Source: Bogoriella caseilytica
GTDB lineage: Bacteria > Actinomycetota > Actinomycetes > Actinomycetales > Actinomycetaceae
Direction of reading: 5' to 3'
DNA: 64,000 nucleotides
NCBI RefSeq assembly: GCF_003752405.1
Contig: NZ_RKHK01000001.1
Location: 2,170,001 to 2,234,000, forward strand
Positions 32,867 through 48,095 of this stretch are shown here, one piece after another. The notes under the pieces are model-generated. The model had not been told where the DNA came from and searched no databases. It worked only from the letters and a program-made list of their open reading frames with translations. Numbering within the stretch: position 1 is the stretch's first letter; every line of letters begins with the position of its first letter. The position numbers and the translations under genes were made by a program.

Positions 32867-35467
32867 GTGGCCGTCCCGATCCTCTATGGCGCTCCGCGCC
32901 TCAGCACCGATCTGATCCGGCGCGATCGGCTGGTGCGCCTCCTCGATGAACGCGCGCCGCTGACGGTCGTGCGAGGGCCGGGCGGTTGTGGCAAGACGGT
33001 CCTCGTCGCCAGCTCGTTGCACGAGGCCGGCGTTGCCGGCGTCTGGGTCAGCGTCGACTCCTCGACCAGCTCGCGGCATGCACTCTGGTCGGCAGTCGGC
33101 AGGCGGCTGACGAGTGCCGGCCTTGCGCCTCCGGGCTCCAGCCTTGACCTGTTGGGCGAGATGGCGACCACCGTCTCCGACCTCCAGCCCTTGCTGCGGA
33201 CTGCCATGAGCGCCCTGCGTGTGCCGGTGATGCTCGTCCTCGATGACTTCCATAGCCTGCAGGAACCCGACACGGTGGCCGAGGACCTCATCGACCTCCT
33301 CGCGGCATGCCCTCAACTGTCGGTCACTGTCACCACCCGGACCCCGAGTTCGCTGGAAGGAAGCCTCGCCGGCGCCAAGCTCGACCGGGTGGTGATCACG
33401 CCACCGTCCATGGCCCTCAGCCTGGAAGAGACGGGCCAGGTGCTCGCCGCGGCGGGTCTCACCGATCCTGCCGAGGTCACAGCGCTCCACCACGCCTCCG
33501 GCGGGAGCGTGCTGCTCCTGCGTGCCCTCCTCCGTGGCCATGGCGCGGGCACGATCACCTACGAGAGCAGCAGGGTGGTCGCCCAGGGACTGGTGAGCGA
33601 TCTGCTCCGCGGCATGCCGGAGGCCCGGCGGCATTTCATGATGCAGACCGCCATCCCAGAAGAGTTCGACCTCTCCCTCGCTCGGGCGCTCGCAGGCAGT
33701 GAGAACGTGGAGGAGCAGCTGGACCATCTGGAGTCCCAAGGCGTGCTCATGCGTTCCGATCGCATAGACGCACCTCTGTACCGATACCACCCTCTGTTGC
33801 GCGAGGCACTGCTGATCGAGGGCGAGACGCAGCTCGGGAGCGAGCTGAGCAGGTTGCACCGGATTGCGGCCCGCTGGTGCGAGGCGCATGACTCCCCGAA
33901 GGCAGCTCTCGGCCACGCCGTCGCGGCACACGACCTCGAGTTCGTCTCCCAAATCTTGCTGGCTCACGGCATCGGCCTCCTTCCTCAGCGGGACGTCTAC
34001 GCGATGCTGTCCCACCTCTCGGCGGCCGCAGTTGCTCGTCATCCGCTCATCGCCCTGATGCTTGCTGTCGGCGCGTACGCACGACGGAACCGGCGTTTCC
34101 GTGCTGTCGAGTACTTCGCGGTGGCGATCGCCGCCTCGCGGGTGATGGGCTCGCGCGCCGGCCCGGCTGAGCGCGCCGCGTTGGCGACCGTCGAGAGCGT
34201 GGCGTTCCGGCTCACCGGACGGCCCGCCCAAGGGGTGAGCTCAGCCCGCCGAGCCCTGCGGTTGTTACGCGGAGATCCTGTGCTGCTCGCGCCCTTGCGT
34301 GACCAGCTCGCCTACCTCCGGTCCCAGAATGCCGTGACGCTCATGCGCGCCGGACGCACCGACGAAGCGCGGGCTGCTCTGCGTGACAACATGGCCGACT
34401 TGGAGTCGATTCCGCTCTCTCCAGCGCTGGCCACTGTGTCACTGCAGGCGGCTCTGCAGGTCTTCGACGGCGATATGAAGTCGGCGGCCGCCTCCGTGGC
34501 TCTTGTCGACGAGGGCCGGTGGCCCGCCGCCATCCGGAATGACTACCCCGGTGCCACCTACCACCTGGCGAAGGCCATTCAGGCGATGGAGGACTTCGAC
34601 GTCGAGGGTGCACGCCGCCATGTGGAGGTGCTCGCCCCGCATATGGCGACCCTCGAGTACCGGCCCTACTTCGTGGCCATCGAGGCCTTGGCCGACCTCG
34701 CCGAGGGGAGCCCGGCACTGGGTCTGCAGCGCCTGGACCGCTTCACCACGGGCGACGTGGGACGCCGTCACCTCGCCCAGCTGGACCAGCGTCTCCTCGG
34801 GCCCGTTCGGGCACTCTTGCACCTCGCGCAGGGCCAGGTCGCCCGGGCCGACCAGGTCCTGAAGTCGCTGCCGGCCAAGAGTGCCGTCGTGATGATTCTC
34901 CGCGCACTGCGGTCGCACCTCACCGGGGACCATGAACGCGCCATCAGTCTGCTGGCACGCACCCACACGCCCGAGACCACACCGCGTATCGCGGCACTGG
35001 CTCACCTGCTCGCGGCGGCCACGGCGCTGCGTGCTGATCGACCGCACCTCGCCGTGGCGCCGCTGGAGAAGATGGCAGCCGTGATGGCCGACTGCGGGCT
35101 GCGCTCGCATCTCGCCCTGGTTCCGCGGAGCGACCTGCTGGCGCTGCGGGTCCTGGCAGAAGAGAAGAACCTCGGTCTCGTCACGCGCTGCCTCGACCTG
35201 GAGGGTGTTCCGGAGGTGCTGCCCGAGGCGGTCTCCGATGTCTCGCTGACCGAGCGTGAGCGCGTGGTGCTCCATGCTCTGGTCGAGCGCAGCAGCCAGG
35301 CCGAGATCGCCGAGTATCTCGTGGTCTCGCCCAACACGGTGAAGAGTCAGCTGCGCTCCCTCTACCGGAAGCTCGAGGCGACAGGGAGGGAAGAGGCCTT
35401 GGCGGTCGCTTTCGCCTCCGGCCTTCTTGAGCGCCCCGGGCCTGCGGAGCATTCCCCGGACCTCTGA
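32867..35467 (+). CDS. Large ATP-binding LuxR-family regulator (MalT/LAL type)
   Basis: This 866-residue STAND-type regulator has an N-terminal NTPase with P-loop VVRGPGGCGKTVLVASSL (about 34-51), Walker B VPVMLVLDDFHSL (about 122-134), and a winged helix (about 280-330). A long helical, TPR-like middle (about 350-760) is followed by a C-terminal LuxR DNA-binding domain, LTERERVVLHALVERSSQAEIAEYLVVSPNTVKSQLRSLYRKL. Family members bind an inducer in the helical region and switch on with ATP, like MalT with maltotriose. It lies between the divergent MFS gene and the surface protein starting at 35724. Both are plausible targets, by position only. GTG 32867 is the first in-frame start compatible with the TAGACT box. 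Confidence 0.9.
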   Translation: MAVPILYGAPRLSTDLIRRDRLVRLLDERAPLTVVRGPGGCGKTVLVASSLHEAGVAGVWVSVDSSTSSRHALWSAVGRRLTSAGLAPPGSSLDLLGEMATTVSDLQPLLRTAMSALRVPVMLVLDDFHSLQEPDTVAEDLIDLLAACPQLSVTVTTRTPSSLEGSLAGAKLDRVVITPPSMALSLEETGQVLAAAGLTDPAEVTALHHASGGSVLLLRALLRGHGAGTITYESSRVVAQGLVSDLLRGMPEARRHFMMQTAIPEEFDLSLARALAGSENVEEQLDHLESQGVLMRSDRIDAPLYRYHPLLREALLIEGETQLGSELSRLHRIAARWCEAHDSPKAALGHAVAAHDLEFVSQILLAHGIGLLPQRDVYAMLSHLSAAAVARHPLIALMLAVGAYARRNRRFRAVEYFAVAIAASRVMGSRAGPAERAALATVESVAFRLTGRPAQGVSSARRALRLLRGDPVLLAPLRDQLAYLRSQNAVTLMRAGRTDEARAALRDNMADLESIPLSPALATVSLQAALQVFDGDMKSAAASVALVDEGRWPAAIRNDYPGATYHLAKAIQAMEDFDVEGARRHVEVLAPHMATLEYRPYFVAIEALADLAEGSPALGLQRLDRFTTGDVGRRHLAQLDQRLLGPVRALLHLAQGQVARADQVLKSLPAKSAVVMILRALRSHLTGDHERAISLLARTHTPETTPRIAALAHLLAAATALRADRPHLAVAPLEKMAAVMADCGLRSHLALVPRSDLLALRVLAEEKNLGLVTRCLDLEGVPEVLPEAVSDVSLTERERVVLHALVERSSQAEIAEYLVVSPNTVKSQLRSLYRKLEATGREEALAVAFASGLLERPGPAEHSPDL

Positions 35468-35723
35468 TCGCGCCGGCATCGGCCGGTGGCCTGATCGTGC
35501 TCGGGCTGAGTCGCGCCCGTTCTGCCCGGCGTGCAACCGAAGCGCCGAGCCACCGGGACACGCTCGGTTGGGGGCGTGGGAGACCGGCAGGGTGAAACCC
35601 AGGGTGAAATTCCCCACGGCGAGAGACCACGTTTAAGGACACCACATGTGTTGCCTGTCATAACTGACCCACTGTTCGTCTCCGTGGCCAGGAGTGGCTG
35701 CATTCATCGTTCTAGGGGTCCCC
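35468..35723 (+). promoter_or_regulatory. Leader region of the third surface-protein gene, with direct repeats and a hairpin
   Basis: AGGGTGAAA occurs twice, 12 bp apart (35589-35597 and 35601-35609), within a possible fold closed by CGTGGG (35575-35580) and CCCACG (35613-35618), with GGGT-GAA-ACCC inside. An AT-rich stretch (about 35629-35680) follows and probably carries the promoter. The direct repeats could bind the adjacent LuxR-type regulator, or the fold could be a cis-acting RNA. It matches no riboswitch I know. Confidence 0.4.
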
Positions 35724-38700
35724 ATGCACCAACGTTCAAGATCTGCGGGCGCTTCAGCGCTCGCCGGTCGTCATCTCGAGGTTGTCGCGCCGCGGTGGAT
35801 CGCCGTGCTCATGGCGGTGTTGATCGGCGTGCTGGGTTCCATGGCCATGGCCGTCCCGGTTGCCGCCGACACTGCACTAGAGCCCGCGATCGAAGCGGAC
35901 TCCGCTGATGCTGATGCTGATGCTGATGCGGATGCCGATGCCGCTGCCGATGCCGCAGCGGAGGCGGACTCTACCGAGGCTGCTGCGGAGGAGGACACCG
36001 AGACGCTCTCGGACACGGCAGACGAAGGCACGCCAGCGACGTCGTCCGATGACGTGTCGACGCTGGCCGAGGTGAGCCCTTTCGCCGAGCCGAGCCCGGT
36101 CTACGAGATCACCGGCGTCTGGCTGGAGCAGCCGGAGGTCACCTCACGGGGGAACCCCGTGGTGGCCGACTGGCGGATCAATGTCAACGACGGCAACAAC
36201 CCGCCGAGCAACGAGCTGGTCGACAATGTGGTCGCCACCTTCGATGTCGGCAACGCAGTCTTCCAGACCATTCCGGACCTCTGCCTCACCACGGGGGTGC
36301 AGCCGGCATCCTCGATCTCGGCCGATGGCTCGCTGCTGACCTGCAACTTCGGCACGGTGGCCCTGGGTCGCTCGATCGCGCTGCAGACCCCGGTGATCAC
36401 CGAAGGTGTCACGGGCACGAACGTCAGCCTGAGCGGCACCAGCCCGGCCGGCGAAACGGTGGAACTGCCCTTGATTCCCATCCAGAACGATTTCCGGATG
36501 GACATGCATTTCGGTCAGAACACCAACCAGCGGGAGTGGGATAGCCTATCGAACCCCACTAACGTCAATCTGGACGTGCAGTGGTCGTTGAGGTTGGGCA
36601 AGGGCTCGGACCCGGGCCCGGCAAACCAGACCTTTCGATTGCGCATCGCCCCGATCTTTCCTGCGGGGTCTACGGTGGAGGTTGGCACACACATCTACAC
36701 CGGCGTGGTGGGTTGCTCACCCTTCGACCTGAGCAACGCCCCCGGCCACCCGTATTCCTCCAACCCTCCGCACCCGCGGCACACGAACTTCGTGGACTCC
36801 TGCACGCTGACTGCGGTGCCGGGCGAGCCCGGCGTCTTCGACCTCACGCTGGAAGGCATCAACTACTCGCTGGTGAACGCGCCGACGAATGACGCCGGCA
36901 CCGCGAACTCCCCGTTGCCGGCGGACTGGGATTACGTGGCTAGTGGATCGCTGTGGTTCCAGGTGAACGCGGGCAGTAACGGGTCGTTGGCGCTGACCAT
37001 GGATCCCGTGACCTACACGGCGACCACCGGACAGACATCAGAGGACCTGGGAACCAACAACCAGACCACCAAGGCCTTCACCCTTCCTGGTGCCTGGAGC
37101 GCCTCCTTCCGTCGATCGGCTACCGGCAGCGGCGGGACCTTCTGGGACGACTCTTACCGCGTCACCCCCGGTGTCACTCTGCGGAACGAGGCCAGAAATG
37201 GCTACAGCGGTGACCGGAACGTGGCACCGACCGCCCAGTACGGCAGTTGCCTGGCGCTCGACACCCGATACGTGATCGTCGACCGCGATTTCGATCTCGC
37301 GGTCGCCACGGGCTTCCTGGCGCGGAACGACTGGCCCGCCTCGGCGGTCCTCGAGTACTACGTGGGCGGTAGTACGCTGCTCGATCCGGCCACCGGCAAT
37401 ACTGCCTACAACCCGGATCAGTTCGAATGCGACAGCGATCCCGGTGGCTGGACCACCGAGCTGCCTGCCGATCTCTCGACGATCCGCGCAGCACGAGTGA
37501 CCTACGATTTCTCCAGTTTCGACGAGGTGGGTCGAGAATTTATCGACCTTGTGGGTTGGACCACTGTTCGCGAGGACGTCCAGCCGGGCCAAGATATTTG
37601 GACGTTCGGCTCCCGCCTGCGTAATGGGGGGTGGTTCGGACCCGCTCAGGAGGAGGTTATTACGCCGACTCCTGACGCTCGGTACCCCCACACGGACGGG
37701 CGGCGCGACATCGCTCGGGTGATCAGCGCGAATCCAGCGATCCAGAAGTCTGCGGAGCGTTCCGTAGTTGTCCCTGGGGTGCCCACGGTGTTCACGCTGC
37801 GCTACTCGGCCAACACCGGGGCGGGCATCCCGGAGAGCGTCGATGGCTACACGGTGGTCGACACTCTGCCCCCGCTGGTCACCTACGAGGTGGGATCCTC
37901 AGATCCTGAGCCGACGGTGACCACGAACGCGAACAACCAGCAGGTGCTGACGTGGACTTTCGACAACGTGCCGACCAATGTGCAGAACGTGCTGACCTAC
38001 GCGGCAGCGGCCGACTCGAGTGTTGCCCCCGGCACTCCGTTGGTCAATACCGCCACGGCCAGTCTCGGCGGAACGACATCCTCACCAGCACGCGCCACGG
38101 TCACCACGGCGAACAACGGGTTCACCACGATTCTGAAGACCTCGGATGTCGAGTTCATCCCGAACCGTCTCGGTGACGGCGTGGGCAGCGGTTCGTGGAC
38201 GGTGACGATCGAGTCACGCGACCCGCAGTCACAGGCCTGGACCGACACCATCGACATCCTCCCGTACAACGGCGATGGTCGGGGGACGTCGTTCTCTGGT
38301 ACTTACACCCTGGGTGACGTGGTGTTGTTCGATGGTGGCACGCTCTACTACACGGACGCTGACCCGGCGACGCTCTCGGACGACCCGGCACATGAGTCGA
38401 ATGGTGCGCCCAACGCTCCCTCGGCGCTGTGGAGCACCGAGAGGCCCGAGAACCCGACCGCTATCCGCGTGATCGGTGGGACGCTGGCGACCGGCGGTTC
38501 CTTCTCCTTCCAGGTGCCGATCACCACGGATGGTGCTGAGGCCCAGGACGTCTTCGTCAACCGGGCGCAAGCGCGCGCCGAGCACACCGAACTGGTGATG
38601 CGGACGTCGGCGGCGCTGGTGGTGACCGACTACCTGGTGGAGAAGTCCGCCAACCCCGAGTCCGGCTCCACCGTTCGCCCGGGCGACGTGGTGGAGTACA

Positions 38701-40754
38701 CGGTGACCGTCTCCCAGATGGGTGATGTGCCTGCTGGTGCATGGTTCTCTGACGACATGTCTGATGTGTTGGACGACGCCGACTACAACGGTGACGTGAC
38801 TGCCAGCCACGGAGAGGTTCTGTCCTTCGAGAACGGCATCCTCGAGTGGGAGGGCGTCGTGCCGGTCGGTGAGATCGCGACGATCACCTACTCGGTGACG
38901 GTGAAGGCCGCCGAGGAGCTGCGCGAAGGTGACAGCAACACGTTCTTGAACAACCAGGTCACCTCGCCTGGTTGCCAGGGAGCCTGCTCCACGGAGCACC
39001 TGGTGGGCTACTACTCAGTGTCGAAGACCGCGGAGCCCGCACCGGGCGAGACGGTGCGCATCGGCGACGTGATCACCTACCACGTGCAGGTGACCCAGCA
39101 CGGCGAAGGTGCGGTCGATAACGCCTTCTTCATTGACGACCTCAGCGAGGTCCTCGATGACGCGATCTGGAACGACGACGCGGCAGCCACCGATGGTGAG
39201 CTGTCCTTCGATGAGCCGATCCTGTCCTGGTCCGCCCCACTGGAGGTTGGTGACGTTGTCGACGTGACCTACTCGGTGACGGTGACCGGAGAGGGTGACT
39301 ACGAGCTGCGCAACGTGGTCAGCTCGGTGTGCGCGGAGGACGACCCCGACTGCCTCGAGGCGATCTGTGTTCCCGCCGCGGATGAGAACCCCGACTGCAC
39401 CACGGAACACATCGTCGGTGACTACCAGGTCACCAAGGTCTCGGACCCCGAGTCCGGGTCGGCGGTCGAGGTCGGCGACGTCATCGACTACACGGTGACC
39501 GTCTCCCACATCGGTCTGGCCGACGTCGAGGCCTCTTTCGTGGACGACCTCTCGGACGTTCTCGATGACGCCATCTGGAACGATGACGTGAGCGCCAGCG
39601 CCGGGGAGTTCAGCTTCGAGGGCGAGACGCTGTCCTGGTGGGGCGCCCTCTCTGAGGGTGATGTCGTCACGGTGACCTACTCGGTGACCGTCACGGCTGA
39701 AGGTGACCGTTACCTGGAGAACGTCGTGACGACCGATGGCTGGTGTGTGCCGGCCGAGGGGCAGGACGAGGCCTGCAGGACCGTGCACATCAACGGTGCC
39801 TACACCTACTCCAAGAGCTCCGAGTCGCCCTCGGGCTCGCTGGTTCGGCCCGGCGAGGTCGTGACCTACACCCTTGAGGTCGAGCACGTGGGTACCGCCC
39901 CCGTCTCTGGGGCGATCGTCACCGACGACCTGTCCCAGGTGCTGCCGTATGCCTCCTGGAATGACGACGCCGAGGCGACAGACGGCACCGTGGTTCGTGA
40001 TGGTGAGACGCTGACGTGGACGGGTGACCTGGCCGTCGGCCAGGTCGTGGAGATCACCTACTCGGTCACCGTGGGTGACCTGGAGGAGATCGCCATGGTC
40101 AACGTGGTGACGAGCCCCGACGAGCGCGCAGTGTGTGTTCCAGCAGCTGACGAGAACGCGGACTGTACGACGGAGCACTACAACGGTGCCTACACCTTCT
40201 CGAAGACCTCGGACCCGGCTTCGGGTTCGGTCGTGGAGGCCGGTGAGGTGGTGACGTACACGGTGGTGGTCGAGCACTACGGCACGGCGGGAGTCCAGGA
40301 CGCGATCGTGGTCGATGACCTCACCGGGGTGCTGGCCTACGCGGAGTGGAACGATGACGCGCAGGCCGATTCGGGCGACCTCGCCTATGCGGATGAGGAG
40401 TTGGTCTGGAGCGGCGATCTGGCTATCGGTCAGGTGGTCGAGATCACCTACTCCGTCACCGTGGGCGACGAGCCCGAGGCCACGCTGCACAATGTGGTCA
40501 CCAGCCCTGACGACCGGGCAGTCTGTGTTCCCGCCGCCGACGGCAACGCCGGCTGCGCCACCGAGCACACCACCCCGCCGGACGCCCCGGGCAAGCCTCC
40601 CGTTCCGGGCCTGCCCAGCACCGGCGCCCTGCTTCCGTGGGGCATGGGGCTGGTCGCGCTTCTGCTCATCGCGTGCGGTGGTGTCTTGACGATCACCGAG
40701 CAGCGCAAGGCCGCAAGCCGGGCCAGGCAGCAGATCGGAACTGACAGGTTCTGA
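35724..40754 (+). CDS. LPSTG-anchored surface protein with five DUF7927-like C-terminal repeats
   Basis: The protein is 1676 residues. A signal peptide (PRWIAVLMAVLIGVLGSMAMAVPVAAD) is followed by an acidic Asp-Ala linker written by a GCTGAT microsatellite. A large beta-rich N-terminal region (about 110-660) has several cysteines that could pair. One DUF11-like domain follows (about 670-790; AIQKSAERSVVVPG to NTATASLGG), and then a further beta domain. Five domains of about 130 residues with the DDLSxVLDDAxWNDDxxA pattern come next. LPSTG (40611-40625), a helix and a basic tail end it. ATG 35724 is preferred over GTG 35694 because AGGGG lies 5 nt before it. It is most likely a stalked adhesin. 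A terminator hairpin follows. Confidence 0.88.
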   Translation: MHQRSRSAGASALAGRHLEVVAPRWIAVLMAVLIGVLGSMAMAVPVAADTALEPAIEADSADADADADADADAAADAAAEADSTEAAAEEDTETLSDTADEGTPATSSDDVSTLAEVSPFAEPSPVYEITGVWLEQPEVTSRGNPVVADWRINVNDGNNPPSNELVDNVVATFDVGNAVFQTIPDLCLTTGVQPASSISADGSLLTCNFGTVALGRSIALQTPVITEGVTGTNVSLSGTSPAGETVELPLIPIQNDFRMDMHFGQNTNQREWDSLSNPTNVNLDVQWSLRLGKGSDPGPANQTFRLRIAPIFPAGSTVEVGTHIYTGVVGCSPFDLSNAPGHPYSSNPPHPRHTNFVDSCTLTAVPGEPGVFDLTLEGINYSLVNAPTNDAGTANSPLPADWDYVASGSLWFQVNAGSNGSLALTMDPVTYTATTGQTSEDLGTNNQTTKAFTLPGAWSASFRRSATGSGGTFWDDSYRVTPGVTLRNEARNGYSGDRNVAPTAQYGSCLALDTRYVIVDRDFDLAVATGFLARNDWPASAVLEYYVGGSTLLDPATGNTAYNPDQFECDSDPGGWTTELPADLSTIRAARVTYDFSSFDEVGREFIDLVGWTTVREDVQPGQDIWTFGSRLRNGGWFGPAQEEVITPTPDARYPHTDGRRDIARVISANPAIQKSAERSVVVPGVPTVFTLRYSANTGAGIPESVDGYTVVDTLPPLVTYEVGSSDPEPTVTTNANNQQVLTWTFDNVPTNVQNVLTYAAAADSSVAPGTPLVNTATASLGGTTSSPARATVTTANNGFTTILKTSDVEFIPNRLGDGVGSGSWTVTIESRDPQSQAWTDTIDILPYNGDGRGTSFSGTYTLGDVVLFDGGTLYYTDADPATLSDDPAHESNGAPNAPSALWSTERPENPTAIRVIGGTLATGGSFSFQVPITTDGAEAQDVFVNRAQARAEHTELVMRTSAALVVTDYLVEKSANPESGSTVRPGDVVEYTVTVSQMGDVPAGAWFSDDMSDVLDDADYNGDVTASHGEVLSFENGILEWEGVVPVGEIATITYSVTVKAAEELREGDSNTFLNNQVTSPGCQGACSTEHLVGYYSVSKTAEPAPGETVRIGDVITYHVQVTQHGEGAVDNAFFIDDLSEVLDDAIWNDDAAATDGELSFDEPILSWSAPLEVGDVVDVTYSVTVTGEGDYELRNVVSSVCAEDDPDCLEAICVPAADENPDCTTEHIVGDYQVTKVSDPESGSAVEVGDVIDYTVTVSHIGLADVEASFVDDLSDVLDDAIWNDDVSASAGEFSFEGETLSWWGALSEGDVVTVTYSVTVTAEGDRYLENVVTTDGWCVPAEGQDEACRTVHINGAYTYSKSSESPSGSLVRPGEVVTYTLEVEHVGTAPVSGAIVTDDLSQVLPYASWNDDAEATDGTVVRDGETLTWTGDLAVGQVVEITYSVTVGDLEEIAMVNVVTSPDERAVCVPAADENADCTTEHYNGAYTFSKTSDPASGSVVEAGEVVTYTVVVEHYGTAGVQDAIVVDDLTGVLAYAEWNDDAQADSGDLAYADEELVWSGDLAIGQVVEITYSVTVGDEPEATLHNVVTSPDDRAVCVPAADGNAGCATEHTTPPDAPGKPPVPGLPSTGALLPWGMGLVALLLIACGGVLTITEQRKAASRARQQIGTDRF
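35904..35939 (+). repeat. In-frame GCTGAT microsatellite (Ala-Asp repeat)
   Basis: Four GCTGAT units, then GCGGAT and GCCGAT, encode an Ala-Asp run just after the signal peptide. Six-base units keep the frame, so slippage would only change linker length. Confidence 0.85.
38631..40572 (+). repeat. Five tandem ~390-bp coding units in the third surface protein
   Basis: Units begin near 38631, 39012, 39423, 39801 and 40191. Each contains a K(T/S)xxPxxGxxVxxGxVxxYTV start, a DDLSxVL turn, and an ITYSVTV strand, ending in a Cys-containing TEHxxG linker. Unlike the giant protein, these units are diverged at DNA level. Confidence 0.85.
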
Positions 40755-40884: not shown

Positions 40885-41190
40885 TCAGGCGGCTGCGGCC
40901 GGCGGCACTGCTGCAGGGCGGCCGGTGAGGATGTCGGTGCGCTCGTCTTCGCTGAGACCACCCCAGACTCCGTACGGTTCGCGAACGGCGAGGGAGTGCT
41001 CGCGGCACTGTTCGATGACGGGGCAGCCTGCGCAGATGCGCTTGGCCTGCTCGTCACGCCGACGGCGCGTACCGCCTCGCTCGCCCTCCGGGTGGAAGAA
41101 GAGGTCGGGGTCTGCCTCGCGGCAGGAACCCTCGTACTGCCATTCCCATAGGTCCATCACGGGGCCGGGGAGGCGGGATAGTTCGGCCAT
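40885..41190 (-). CDS. WhiB-family iron-sulfur regulator, WhiB3/WhiD type
   Basis: This 101-residue protein binds a 4Fe-4S cluster through Cys23, Cys53, Cys56 and Cys62 and acts with the main sigma factor. The sequence LSRLPGPxMDLWEWQ...CREADPDLFFHPEGERG...CPVIEQC...EPYGVWGGLSEDER matches the WhiB3/WhiD subgroup better than WhiB1 or WhiB2. Its place upstream of guaB is also that of whiD in Streptomyces. WhiD is needed for late sporulation and WhiB3 senses redox state; the role here is unknown. Ribosome site AGAGGA lies 8 nt before ATG 41190. The C-terminus is Ala-rich and lacks a strongly basic tail. Confidence 0.92.
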   Translation of the reverse strand: MAELSRLPGPVMDLWEWQYEGSCREADPDLFFHPEGERGGTRRRRDEQAKRICAGCPVIEQCREHSLAVREPYGVWGGLSEDERTDILTGRPAAVPPAAAA

Positions 41191-41507
41191 GGCTGGTCCT
41201 CTCGTACGGTGTCAAAGCGTTCCCGGGCTGCGTGCCGGAGAACTGCTGAACAAGGCTGTGAACAACTTGTGCCTCAAGCTAGCAGCCGTTGCGGAAGTTG
41301 TTCAACCCCCTCTGGCGACCAATCTGTGAACAACTTCGCGGCGAGCGCCCTCAGGGAGGATCCGGCGGCACGGTGCGGCATCCGTGGAGTGAACAACCCT
41401 GTGCAGTACCTGCGACGAAGGTCGCGAGGCGTTCCTGTGGCGACACCACCAAAGTTGTGCACTACCGGCGGGCCGAGTGGCGCGTGGGCCAAGAAAGGGT
41501 CAAGATC
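41191..41507. promoter_or_regulatory. 317-bp divergent region with clustered TGAACAAC motifs
   Basis: No gene is seen here. TGAACAAC or its complement occurs at 41259-41266, 41297-41304 (inverted), 41327-41334 and 41390-41397. Near matches lie at 41247-41254 (TGAACAAG) and 41454-41461 (GTTGTGCA, inverted). Several are spaced by 63-68 bp, about six helical turns. The motifs stand out as AT-rich islands. A GACAC lies about 20 bp upstream of whiB on its own strand. The cluster is a good candidate for an operator shared by whiB and the MerR-like gene. Confidence 0.65.
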
Positions 41508-42650
41508 GTGGGCATGTCGACACCGCGTGGCGCTCCGCCCCCTGGGGAGAGCGGCGCCGAGCACCGGGAATCGCGGGACCGGGCGCGCCATCCACCGCGA
41601 TCTGCGCAACCGGCTCGGGGGAGCCTGTTGACTGAAGCGACTCCGGGTGAGGTTGATCCCGTGTCAGGGGCCGGTTCTCCGACCGGGAGTGATGCTCCAC
41701 TGACCGTGGCGGGGGTGGCTGGCCGGCTCGGTGTGGCTGCGTCGACGCTACGGACATGGGCCCGCCGCTATGGTCTCGGGCCATCGGCGCATGTCGCCGG
41801 CGCTCACCGGAAGTACACCCGCGACGATGTCGCCCGGCTCGAGCGCATGCGGGCGCTCACCCTGCAAGGGGTGGCTCCTGCAGATGCTGCCCGCGCTGCC
41901 GTGTCCGATGTCCCGCTCACCGGTACGCCGGCGGAAGGCTCGCTCGCCGAGGAGGCACGGGCGAGTGATTCCGCCGAGATCGTCTCGCCGGCACGCTGGC
42001 GCCATGGTGCACCACGAGCGAACAGGCGAGAGCGAGTTCTGGTGGACCCGCTCTCTGTGGCTGCGGCTGCCGTCGAGGCAGATTCGGACCGCGTGGAGAG
42101 CATGCTTGCCCAGGAGATCGGGGACCGAGGTGTGGCGCGCACGTGGACCGAAACGGTCACCGATGCGCTCGCGACCCTGGCCGATCGCAAGAAGCCCAAC
42201 CTGCCCGGGGTGGAGCCGGAGGCAGTCCTGCGGGCGGCGTTCCTGGAAGCGCTCCGCACCAGCACGGCAAAGGCTGCCACGGAGGACAAGCCCGAGGCCG
42301 CGCCCGTGCTGGTCTGCGCCCCGGTGGGTCACCGGCTCTCCGCACACGTCATCGGCGGAGCGCTGGCCGAGGCCGGCGTACCCTCCCGCATCCTCGGAGT
42401 GCCGCGATTCGACGGCTCGGCCCCCGATATGGCGCGCGCCGGTCAGGCGAAGATCCTGGCTGTGCTCGGCGCGCCTGACGGCCTCGAGCAGGTCGTGCGA
42501 TCACTGTCCGAAGGCGGAGAGACCCCGGTCTACCTGCTGGGGGAGGACGCGCCGAAGATGTGGCTCCCGGGCGTGCATCATGTGCGCACGCTCCCCGCCG
42601 CGGTCGAGGAGATTGCCGCAGCGGCGCGCGAGTCGGTTCGAAGCGCATAG
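41508..42650 (+). CDS. MerR-family regulator with B12-binding-like C-terminal domain
   Basis: The protein is about 380 residues. A poorly conserved, disordered N-terminus (about 1-62) is followed by a MerR winged helix (LTVAGVAGRLGVAASTLRTWARRYGLGPSAHVAGAHRKYTRDDVARLERM). A helical bundle (about 175-245) and a Rossmann-like domain (VLVCAPVGHRLSAHVIGGALAEAGVPSRILG) make up the rest. This is the layout of CarH/LitR photoreceptor repressors that bind adenosylcobalamin. However, the Wx9EH motif of the bundle is not visible and the ExH ligand loop reads VGHR, so B12 binding is uncertain. GTG 41508 has AGGG 9 nt upstream; ATG 41514 is an alternative. It is divergent from whiB across the motif cluster. 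Confidence 0.78.
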   Translation: MGMSTPRGAPPPGESGAEHRESRDRARHPPRSAQPARGSLLTEATPGEVDPVSGAGSPTGSDAPLTVAGVAGRLGVAASTLRTWARRYGLGPSAHVAGAHRKYTRDDVARLERMRALTLQGVAPADAARAAVSDVPLTGTPAEGSLAEEARASDSAEIVSPARWRHGAPRANRRERVLVDPLSVAAAAVEADSDRVESMLAQEIGDRGVARTWTETVTDALATLADRKKPNLPGVEPEAVLRAAFLEALRTSTAKAATEDKPEAAPVLVCAPVGHRLSAHVIGGALAEAGVPSRILGVPRFDGSAPDMARAGQAKILAVLGAPDGLEQVVRSLSEGGETPVYLLGEDAPKMWLPGVHHVRTLPAAVEEIAAAARESVRSA

Positions 42651-42716: not shown

Positions 42717-44306
<1,590 letters not shown>

Positions 44307-44355
44307 TTCGGACGCCACCGCGCCCTGCCTGGCTCGACCCCGCGCGTGATCCAGC

Positions 44356-44361
44356 TAGCCT
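44356..44361 (+). promoter_or_regulatory. Candidate -10 box for guaB3 (leaderless)
   Basis: TAGCCT is followed by 6 nt and GTG 44368. The same TAGCCT-N6-start arrangement is found at the phosphoketolase and SURF1 genes. Confidence 0.45.
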
Positions 44362-44367
44362 GGTGCT

Positions 44368-45492
44368 GTGAGTATCGAGATTGAGATCGGCCGCGGAAAG
44401 CGTGCCCGGCGCGCCTACAGCTTCGACGACGTCGCCGTCGTGCCCTCCCGGCGCACCCGGGACCCCGAAGACGTTGACGTCTCGTGGCAGATTGACGCTT
44501 ATCACGTGGACATCCCGGTGCTCGCGGCGCCGATGGACTCCGTCATGTCTCCGGCCACCGCCATCGAGCTCGGCCGCCTGGGCGGCATCGGGGTACTGGA
44601 CCTCGAAGGACTGTGGACCCGGTACGAGGACCCCACCTCGGCGCTGGCGGAGGTGGCCGCTGCTCCGGAGGCCGAGGCCACGGCGATGCTGCAGCGCCTC
44701 TACGCCGAGCCCATCAAGCCCGAGCTGATCACCGCGCGTCTGCAGGAGGTGCGCGCCGCCGGCCACACGGTGGCTGGGTCGCTCAGCCCGCAGCGCACGA
44801 ATGAGTTCTGGCGCGTGGTCGTCGAGGCCGGCGTGGACTTGTTCATCATTCGCGGCACCACCGTCTCGGCCGAGCATGTGTCCTCGCGCGCCGAACCGTT
44901 GAACCTCAAGCGCTTCATCTATGAGCTGGACGTGCCCGTGATCGTCGGCGGGGCGGCCACCTACCAGGCGGCGCTGCACCTGATGCGCACCGGTGCGGCC
45001 GGCGTGCTGGTCGGTTTCGGCGGGGGAGCGGCGCTGACCACGCGCCAGGCGCTGGGGATCCACGCTCCGATGGCCTCGGCCGTGGCCGACGTCGCTGCGG
45101 CCCGGCGGGACTACCTGGACGAGTCGGGCGGGCGGTACGTGCACGTGATCGCCGACGGCGGCGTGGGCCGCTCCGGTGATCTGGTCAAGGCCGTGGCGTG
45201 CGGGGCCGACGCGGTCATGCTCGGTGCTGCGCTGGCTCGGGCCGAGGAGGCTCCCGGTCAAGGATGGCACTGGGGTTCCGAGGCGCACCACGCCGAGCTG
45301 CCGCGCGGAGAGCGGGTCAAGGTGTACACCGTCGGCACCCTGGAGCAGATCCTGCACGGCCCCTCGAACTCCGCCGACGGCACCCTGAACCTCATCGGCG
45401 CGCTCCGCCGGACGATGGCCACCACCGGATACTCCGATCTCAAGGAGTTCCAGAGGGTCGAGGTCGTCGTCTCTCCGTACAACCCGGTGTGA
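44368..45492 (+). CDS. guaB3: GuaB3-family IMP dehydrogenase-related protein
   Basis: This 374-residue IMPDH paralogue of the GuaB3 class is found beside guaB in actinobacteria. The barrel is clear ([51 protein letters not shown]) but there are no CBS domains. The catalytic loop, GPGSICTTR in GuaB, reads GFGGGAALTTR here, so the cysteine is replaced. The flap is also altered. It therefore cannot carry out normal IMPDH chemistry; the role of GuaB3 is not settled (GMP-reductase-like or regulatory roles have been considered). It is intact, not a pseudogene: motifs elsewhere are preserved and it has its own promoter-like box. Confidence 0.9.
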   Translation: MSIEIEIGRGKRARRAYSFDDVAVVPSRRTRDPEDVDVSWQIDAYHVDIPVLAAPMDSVMSPATAIELGRLGGIGVLDLEGLWTRYEDPTSALAEVAAAPEAEATAMLQRLYAEPIKPELITARLQEVRAAGHTVAGSLSPQRTNEFWRVVVEAGVDLFIIRGTTVSAEHVSSRAEPLNLKRFIYELDVPVIVGGAATYQAALHLMRTGAAGVLVGFGGGAALTTRQALGIHAPMASAVADVAAARRDYLDESGGRYVHVIADGGVGRSGDLVKAVACGADAVMLGAALARAEEAPGQGWHWGSEAHHAELPRGERVKVYTVGTLEQILHGPSNSADGTLNLIGALRRTMATTGYSDLKEFQRVEVVVSPYNPV

Positions 45493-45590: not shown

Positions 45591-48095
45591 ATGAGTGCAC
45601 CGGACCGCATCACTGCCCCGTCCGCATGGCGTCGCCGCTCCGAGGTCACTGATGTGTCCTTGGATGAAGCCACCTATCAGCGCATTGACGCGTGGTGGCG
45701 GGCTGCCAACTACCTCTCTGTGGGGCAGATCTACCTGCTCGACAATCCGTTGCTGCGTGAAGAACTCACGGCGGAGCACGTGAAGCCGCGCCTGCTCGGG
45801 CACTGGGGAACCACCCCGGGGCTGACCTTCCTGTATGCGCATCTGAACCGGGTCATTGCCGAGCGGGAGCAGAGCGCCTTCTATCTGACCGGCCCCGGCC
45901 ACGGCGGGCCCGGTCTGGTGGCCGGCACCTACCTGGAGGGCACCTACTCCGAGGTCTACCCGGACATCACCGCGGACGCCGAGGGCGTGCGGCGCCTCTT
46001 CCGGCAGTTCTCCTTCCCCGGCGGGATCCCCTCCCACGTGGCCCCGGAGACCCCCGGCTCGATCCACGAGGGCGGCGAGCTCGGCTACGCGCTCTCCCAT
46101 GCCTACGGCGCGATCTTCGACAACCCGGATCTGCTGGCCTTCGCCGTCGTCGGTGACGGCGAGGCTGAGACCGGCCCGCTGGCGACCTCGTGGCACTCCA
46201 ACAAGTGGGTCAACCCCAGCCGTGACGGCGTGGTGCTGCCGGTGCTGCACCTGAACGGCTACAAGATCGCCAACCCCACGATGCTTGCCCGCATCCCGGA
46301 GGAAGAGCTGGCGGCGCTGATGCGCGGCTATGGCCACACGCCCTACTTCTTCACCGCGGGATTCGATGACGAGGAGCCTTCCTCCTTCCACCGCCGCTTC
46401 GCCGAGCTGCTCGACCAAGTCATGGACGAGATCGCCGAGATCAAGGCACGTGCGGCGCAGGGTGAGTTCGATGCCACCGATGACGCCTACCCGCGCTGGC
46501 CGATGATCGTGCTGCGGACGCCCAAGGGCTGGACGGGCCCGAAGAGCATCGATGGCAAACCCACGGAGGGATCGTGGCGTTCCCACCAGGTTCCGCTCGC
46601 CTCCGCGCGGGACACCGAGGAGCACCTGCAGGACCTGAAGTCCTGGTTGAGTTCGTACCGGCCAGAGGAGCTCTTCGATGACACCGGGGCGCTCAAGGGC
46701 GACATCGCCTCCCTCGCGCCGGCCGGAGACCTGCGCCTCGGGGCGAACCCGCACACCAATGGCGGGTTGCTCCTGAAAGACCTTCGCCTGCCGGATTGGC
46801 GCGACTTCGGCGTGGAGGTGGAGGCGCCTGGCGCCCCGCTGAAGGAGGCGACCCGGGTGCTCGGTGAGTACCTCAGCGAGGTGATCCGCCTGAATCCGGA
46901 GCGCTTCCGGATCTTCGGGCCCGACGAGACGGCGTCCAACCGGCTGCAGGCCGTGTACGAGAACACAGCGAAGCAGTGGAATGCGGGCTATCACGCATCC
47001 GATGCGGACGATCACCTGGCGCGTGCCGGCCAGGTGATGGAGGTGCTCAGCGAGCACCAGTGCCAGGGATGGCTGGAGGGGTACCTGCTCACCGGCCGGC
47101 ACGGGATGATGAACTCCTACGAGGCCTTCATCCACATCGTCGACTCCATGGTGAACCAGCACGCCAAGTGGTTGAAGGTCACCAACCACATTCCGTGGCG
47201 CCGGCCGATCGCCTCATTGAACTATCTGCTCTCCTCCCACGTCTGGCGCCAGGACCACAACGGCTTCTCCCATCAGGATCCGGGTTTCATCGATCACGTG
47301 GTGAACAAGAAGGCCGAGATCGTGCGTGTCTACCTGCCGCCGGACGCCAACACCCTGCTGGTCACCTATGACCACGCCTTGCGCTCGCGCCAGCTCATCA
47401 ACGTGGTGGTCGCGGGCAAGCAACCCGGCCCGAGCTTCCTCTCCGTGGAGGAGGCCTCGCGCCACTGCGCCCGGGGGCTCGGCATCTGGGAATGGGCCGG
47501 GAGCGAGGAGGCGGGCGAGGAGCCTGACGTGGTGCTGGCCTGTGCCGGTGACGTGCCCACGCTGGAGACCCTCGCCGCCGCGGACATCTTGCGCCGCGAG
47601 ATCCCCGACCTCCGGGTGCGGGTGGTCAACGTGGTGGACCTGATGCGCCTGCAGGATGAGCGTGAGCATCCGCACGGCCTGACCGACGCCGAGTTCAACG
47701 CCGTGTTCACCACCTCCAAGCCGATCATCTTCGCGTACCACGGCTATCCGTGGCTGATTCACCGGCTGACCTACCGCCGGGCGGGGCATGCGAACCTGCA
47801 CGTGCGTGGCTACAAGGAGGAGGGCACCACGACCACGCCCTTCGACATGGTCATGTTGAACGACCTTGACCGCTATCACCTGGTCATTGACGTGCTGGAC
47901 CGGACGCCGGGCCTGATGCAGCGCCACGGCCTGCTGAAGCAGCGGATGGTGGATGCCCGGTGGGCGGCCCGCGAGTACACCCGGGAGTTCGGCGAGGACA
48001 TCCCCGAGGTGGCCGACTGGGTGTGGCCGGACGCCGGGCAGAGCGGCAGCGAGGCAGCCGGCACCTTGCGCGACACCGGCGGTGACAACGAGTAG
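45591..48095 (+). CDS. xfp: Xylulose-5-phosphate/fructose-6-phosphate phosphoketolase
   Basis: This thiamine-diphosphate enzyme splits xylulose-5-phosphate (and often fructose-6-phosphate) with phosphate to acetyl-phosphate plus glyceraldehyde-3-phosphate (or erythrose-4-phosphate). It is 834 residues, within the family range. Conserved pieces include [69 protein letters not shown] (ThDP-Mg site), [24 protein letters not shown], and [10 protein letters not shown] in the second domain. The acetyl-phosphate can be used by the AckA and Pta proteins encoded 7-8 kb away. The specificity between the two sugars cannot be read from sequence with confidence. Confidence 0.95.

Follow-up and report, generated by a model that had tools for sequence, protein, structure and literature searches.

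The window analysed here is a 64,000-nucleotide stretch of the Bogoriella caseilytica genome, in which a gap of 320 bp separates a whiB gene on the minus strand (40885-41190, start codon at 41190) from a MerR-like gene on the plus strand (41511-42650). The 101 aa product of the whiB gene matches the Pfam Whib family (5.2e-26), and in comparison with the PDB it scores far better against WhiB3 (E 9.7e-34) than against WhiB1 (9.5e-14); judged by its sequence it is a WhiB3 orthologue, and it is the presumed target of the regulator next to it. The MerR gene is followed by guaB, encoding IMP dehydrogenase (42729-44306, plus strand; Pfam IMPDH 6e-156), which is a conserved neighbour and adjoins the whiB3/MerR pair in most relatives. 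IMPDH-family genes stand here in tandem (42729-45492, plus strand), with products of 525 and 374 aa. The whiB3 locus of Mycobacterium and the whiD locus of Streptomyces are alike in having the WhiB3 orthologue near guaB; no MerR gene is known between whiB and guaB in mycobacterial and Streptomyces loci. Other plus-strand genes around the locus encode a large LuxR-type regulator with an AAA/NACHT-like ATPase domain at its N-terminus (32867-35467), a surface protein of 1686 aa with DUF7927/DUF11 repeats, a match to a pilin-like Ig domain and a C-terminal LPSTG sorting signal (35694-40754), and a phosphoketolase (XFP; 45591-48095).

The MerR protein (MerR_1, 4.5e-13) is the presumed binder, and the label 'B12-like' given to its gene in an earlier note was apt, as its homology to CarH/LitR extends along the whole protein. 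In a single-sequence search its helix-turn-helix (HTH) was closest to that of CarH, and CarH and LitR proteins were the best PDB sequence matches. A profile built from 21 MerR orthologues matched CarH with an E value of 5.9e-23 over residues 6-275, spanning the HTH, the four-helix bundle and the Rossmann B12-type domain, and the window protein thus shares the three-part architecture of the B12-based photoreceptor repressors CarH (Thermus thermophilus, Bacillus megaterium) and class I LitR. The AlphaFold model (pLDDT 86) has CarH structures as its top Foldseek matches, with whole-chain TM-scores of 0.4-0.5 that are low because the placement of the domains is flexible, and a target TM-score of 0.66 for the C-terminal domain alone. 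The recognition helix reads RTWARRY in the window protein and LRTW[DAE]RRYG in its relatives (family pattern RxWERRY), a further likeness to CarH and class I LitR, which carry RxWxRRY. The start of the gene is uncertain (candidates at 41511, 41517 and 41628), with about 60 poorly conserved residues before the HTH; conservation of the protein begins at approximately 41690.

The cluster of motifs that had been described in the gap is real. Four exact copies of TGAACAAC lie within 41259-41397, three on the plus strand (41259-41266, directly downstream of the predicted whiB3 start; 41327-41334, upstream of the whiB3 -35; and the distal copy at 41390-41397) and one, previously noted as inverted, on the minus strand (41297-41304). 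To these can be added a copy matching at 7 of 8 positions, TGAACAAG, on the plus strand at 41247-41254, 12 bp from the next copy, and two minus-strand near copies of the TGCACA type, TGCACAAC at 41454-41461 and another at 41405. The expected number of the 8-mer is 0.61 for the whole window, and when the gap was shuffled 20,000 times with its dinucleotides preserved, four copies were never reached (mean 0.014, maximum 2). A fifth copy in the window, at 38947, lies inside the gene of the 1686-aa surface protein and is unrelated to the cluster.

It had been suggested that a motif common at random in the genome would count against a regulatory role. The 8-mer itself is indeed common, with 92 copies in 3.24 Mb against 21 for the reversed control, and this excess is partly one of Val-Asn-Asn codons, because many GTGAACAAC matches are in frame within long ORFs. 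On that count alone the cluster could be a coincidence of chance or coding sequence, but the gap is the densest cluster of TGAACAAC genome-wide, with two copies or fewer per 1 kb elsewhere. The extended motif is also unique to it: TTGAACAACTTNTGC, allowing at most one mismatch, occurs twice in the genome and both times in the whiB3–MerR gap, the extended form of the 41259 copy, GTGAACAACTTGTGC, being the genome's other near-perfect match. As shuffles gave at most two copies, no comparable cluster exists in the genome and the motif is conserved in relatives, a chance origin is given practically no weight and can be regarded as excluded.

The arrangement of the copies is a different matter. The spacings of 63 and 68 bp given in the earlier note are correct for the plus-strand copies, but these distances correspond to 6.0 and 6.5 helical turns, so the copies do not all share one face of the helix, and the proposal of cooperative looping on one face is not supported on this ground. 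Nor is a fixed long spacing between extra half-sites conserved in relatives, whose gaps do contain the motif, as had been asked, although usually only once; the multi-copy arrangement of the window is not conserved. Extra half-sites are nevertheless enriched in the gaps of relatives (23 vs 6.8 expected). Since they are enriched with no fixed distance, the plus-strand copies in the window are best seen as auxiliary half-sites, which would probably raise occupancy by the regulator.

De novo motif discovery, with no prior input, on 21 orthologous gaps from relatives with the MerR gene returned CTTGAACAACTTnTGCAnCG, which corresponds in the window to the minus-strand copy at 41297-41304. This copy, an exact match orthologous in relatives, is part of a predicted operator/promoter block on the minus strand (41275-41325) that is conserved in relatives and matches a sequence model, R1, with an E value of 2.1e-7; the next best match in the genome has an E value of 0.3, leaving the block as the sole strong site there. 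Within it lie a predicted whiB3 -35, TTGAAC (41300-41305), overlapping the conserved TGAACAAC copy, and, after a spacer of 18 bp, a predicted -10, TAGCTT (41276-41281). Both elements recur on the whiB strand of 69 related loci, in which the -35 is TTGAAC in 46, TTGACC in 12 and TTGAAT in nine (67/69, in each case within the conserved copy), and TAnnnT follows at 17 or 18 bp in 97% (67/69), vs 1% expected; the spacer is 17 bp long in 65% and 18 bp in 32%. What is conserved here is therefore the core promoter of whiB3, in which the spacer is unusually well preserved, and the suggestion that whiB could be the target agrees with the overlap of the conserved copy with the whiB -35 and spacer.

Because its -35 and -10 are good ones and stand 17-18 bp apart, the block could be conserved for contacts with RNA polymerase only and have no dedicated regulator. 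We consider this unlikely, as the conservation continues through the spacer in related loci, there are further TGAACAAC copies beyond the promoter, with half-sites enriched in such gaps, and the block is absent from whiB3 genes that have no MerR neighbour.

The association between site and MerR gene was determined in two sets of sequences. In the first, 80 named CarH-like loci were collected by an alignment-based scan of genome contigs, on which a single-protein scan gave none; they include Georgenia, Occultella, Bowdeniella, Schaalia, Trueperella, Cellulomonas, Actinotalea, Nanopelagicales, Frankiales, Pseudonocardia and others. In each of the 80, the MerR gene and whiB3 are divergently oriented, and 69 have the site. 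In the second, 198 genomes belonging to the order were scanned with model R1, E < 1e-3 being taken as a strong match. Such a match was found in 56 of the 80 genomes with the MerR gene, leaving 24 MerR-carrying genomes without one, and in none of the 118 genomes lacking the gene; all but one of the 56 matches are found on the strand opposite to the MerR gene and upstream of it. The Fisher value for this co-occurrence is 1.6e-30, which overstates the evidence because approximately 12 of the genomes also supplied training sequences for R1 and because the genomes are related, not independent. More telling is that the site was absent from all 13 whiB3 loci of relatives without the MerR gene (mostly beside guaB); one of these, L061, includes some 0.5 kb of sequence upstream of whiB, which makes the absence of MerR uncertain in that case. 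A guaB tree places three or more gains or losses of the MerR gene on branches with good support (the best tree has seven), each accompanied by the same change in the site, although three such pairs do not by themselves reach significance.

The motif is thus conserved in these actinobacteria only beside a CarH-like gene, and it is therefore very probably the binding site of that regulator; the proposal that the MerR-like neighbour is the binder accords with the co-occurrence in genomes and with the 13 MerR-less loci. Another protein could bind instead, for example WhiB3 itself, whose gene is adjacent and for which autoregulation would be a common arrangement. This is very improbable, because the relatives examined that have WhiB3 and lack the MerR gene do not have the motif.

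The best explanation, to which we assign a probability of about 77%, is that the motif is the operator of the adjacent CarH/LitR-type MerR protein within the whiB3 promoter, probably serving to repress whiB3. The site, the promoter architecture, their conservation, the co-occurrence of gene and site, and the homology of the protein are established computationally; that the MerR protein binds at the motif is inferred from these and very likely, and that it represses whiB3 is somewhat more likely than not. The regulator would bind the conserved copy, which covers the whiB -35 (TTGAAC) and part of the spacer separating it from the TAnnnT -10, and once bound would block RNA polymerase and keep whiB3 repressed, much as CarH represses the promoters under its control. 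Release of the regulator by a signal would then raise WhiB3. Repression is the likelier mode because the spacer is of ordinary length, 17-18 bp, so that it would not have to be untwisted as long spacers are in the classical MerR mechanism, and the site lies over the -35.

MerR regulators are frequently activators, and the gap is common to both genes, so the protein could bind at the motif and either activate whiB3 or mainly control its own gene. A CAAC-N10-GTTG dyad within the spacer, seen with this spacing alone and in 32% of loci, would suit activation, but classical MerR activation uses a dyad in a spacer of 19-20 bp, and with 17-18 bp here it is disfavoured; the CarH relatives are, moreover, repressors (PMC9304148). 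Against control of its own gene stands the lack of a visible promoter in the MerR direction at the motif: in related loci TAnnnT at 14-20 bp in that direction occurred only at chance level, and the idea that the motif also serves as a promoter for the MerR gene was rejected. Activation or self-control is therefore regarded as rather unlikely, though less so than the polymerase-only reading.

The operator reading can be compared with what is known of related systems. CarH repeats have the form nnnnTnnACAn, one of them contains the -35, and CarH binding blocks RNA polymerase (PMC9304148). The core TGAACA of the window motif fits the TnnACA pattern and includes most of the -35, so that, as with CarH and class I LitR, a TnnACA-type site overlaps the -35 of the target promoter. 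For the 11-bp tandem repeats of CarH operators the whiB3 gaps give hints: partial repeats at 11/22-bp offsets stood out in an initial, smaller set of loci but were not unique in the larger set of 69, so that clean CarH-like repeats are suggested by the initial set only. The presumed target also differs, being whiB3 here, whereas CarH targets carotenoid genes.

The use of adenosylcobalamin by CarH requires Wx9EH and an axial His (PMC8156234, PMC9304148). In the window protein, K...EA stands at the Wx9EH positions, a further difference from CarH, and in place of the axial-ligand motif D/ExHx2G/P there is an isolated aligned His (PVGHRLS) without the D/E and G/P. In the nearest relatives, Georgenia and Bowdeniella, this His too is lost. 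As the protein is without Wx9EH, B12-based or light control is doubtful in the window's organism, and the signal in this lineage is, going by these residues, probably not adenosylcobalamin. Members from Nanopelagicales, Frankiales, Pseudonocardia and other lineages retain both Wx9EH and the axial His; loci in which a protein with intact motifs is encoded divergently from whiB3 include L038, L042, L046, L052, L150, L158, L163, L181 and others. From their residues, these are plausible candidates for B12-based light control of the WhiB3 gene.

B12-independent members of the family offer partial parallels. CarA of Myxococcus xanthus, a B12-independent paralogue of CarH, resembles the window protein in having the CarH fold with Wx9EH not intact, and its operator likewise overlaps elements of a promoter (PMC9304148), but it keeps the B12-binding motif, and its action at carotenoid genes involves the antirepressor CarS. 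The class II LitR proteins PplR1 and PmlR2 of Pseudomonas are likewise B12-independent LitR relatives, with sites of the form TGTACA-N12-TGTACA overlapping the -35 or in the leader (PMC9758184), comparable to the window, where TGAACA copies occur both at the -35 and within the leader of whiB. They differ in having no Rossmann B12 domain, which is present in the window protein, and in acting with a LOV protein. Class V LitR proteins occur in Micrococcales, are without the B12 domain and have no known function (PMC9758184). The literature searched, in which few subscription journals were covered, contained no CarH/LitR–WhiB link of this kind and nothing relevant on the motif, or on whiD with MerR and guaB.

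CarH/LitR proteins are known chiefly as light/B12 switches of carotenoid genes. If the whiB3 promoter does carry a conserved operator for them, the family would gain a defined target and a connection to the WhiB3 redox regulator. It is possible, though less likely than not, that this represents an actinobacterial two-gene switch in which a CarH-type regulator directly controls a divergent whiB3, members with the B12 motifs making whiB3 responsive to light and B12 and the lineage of the window having kept the operator and exchanged the signal. MerR proteins with and without the B12 residues adjoin the same predicted operator, and these loci would therefore form a natural series for the loss of its ligand by a B12 photoreceptor.
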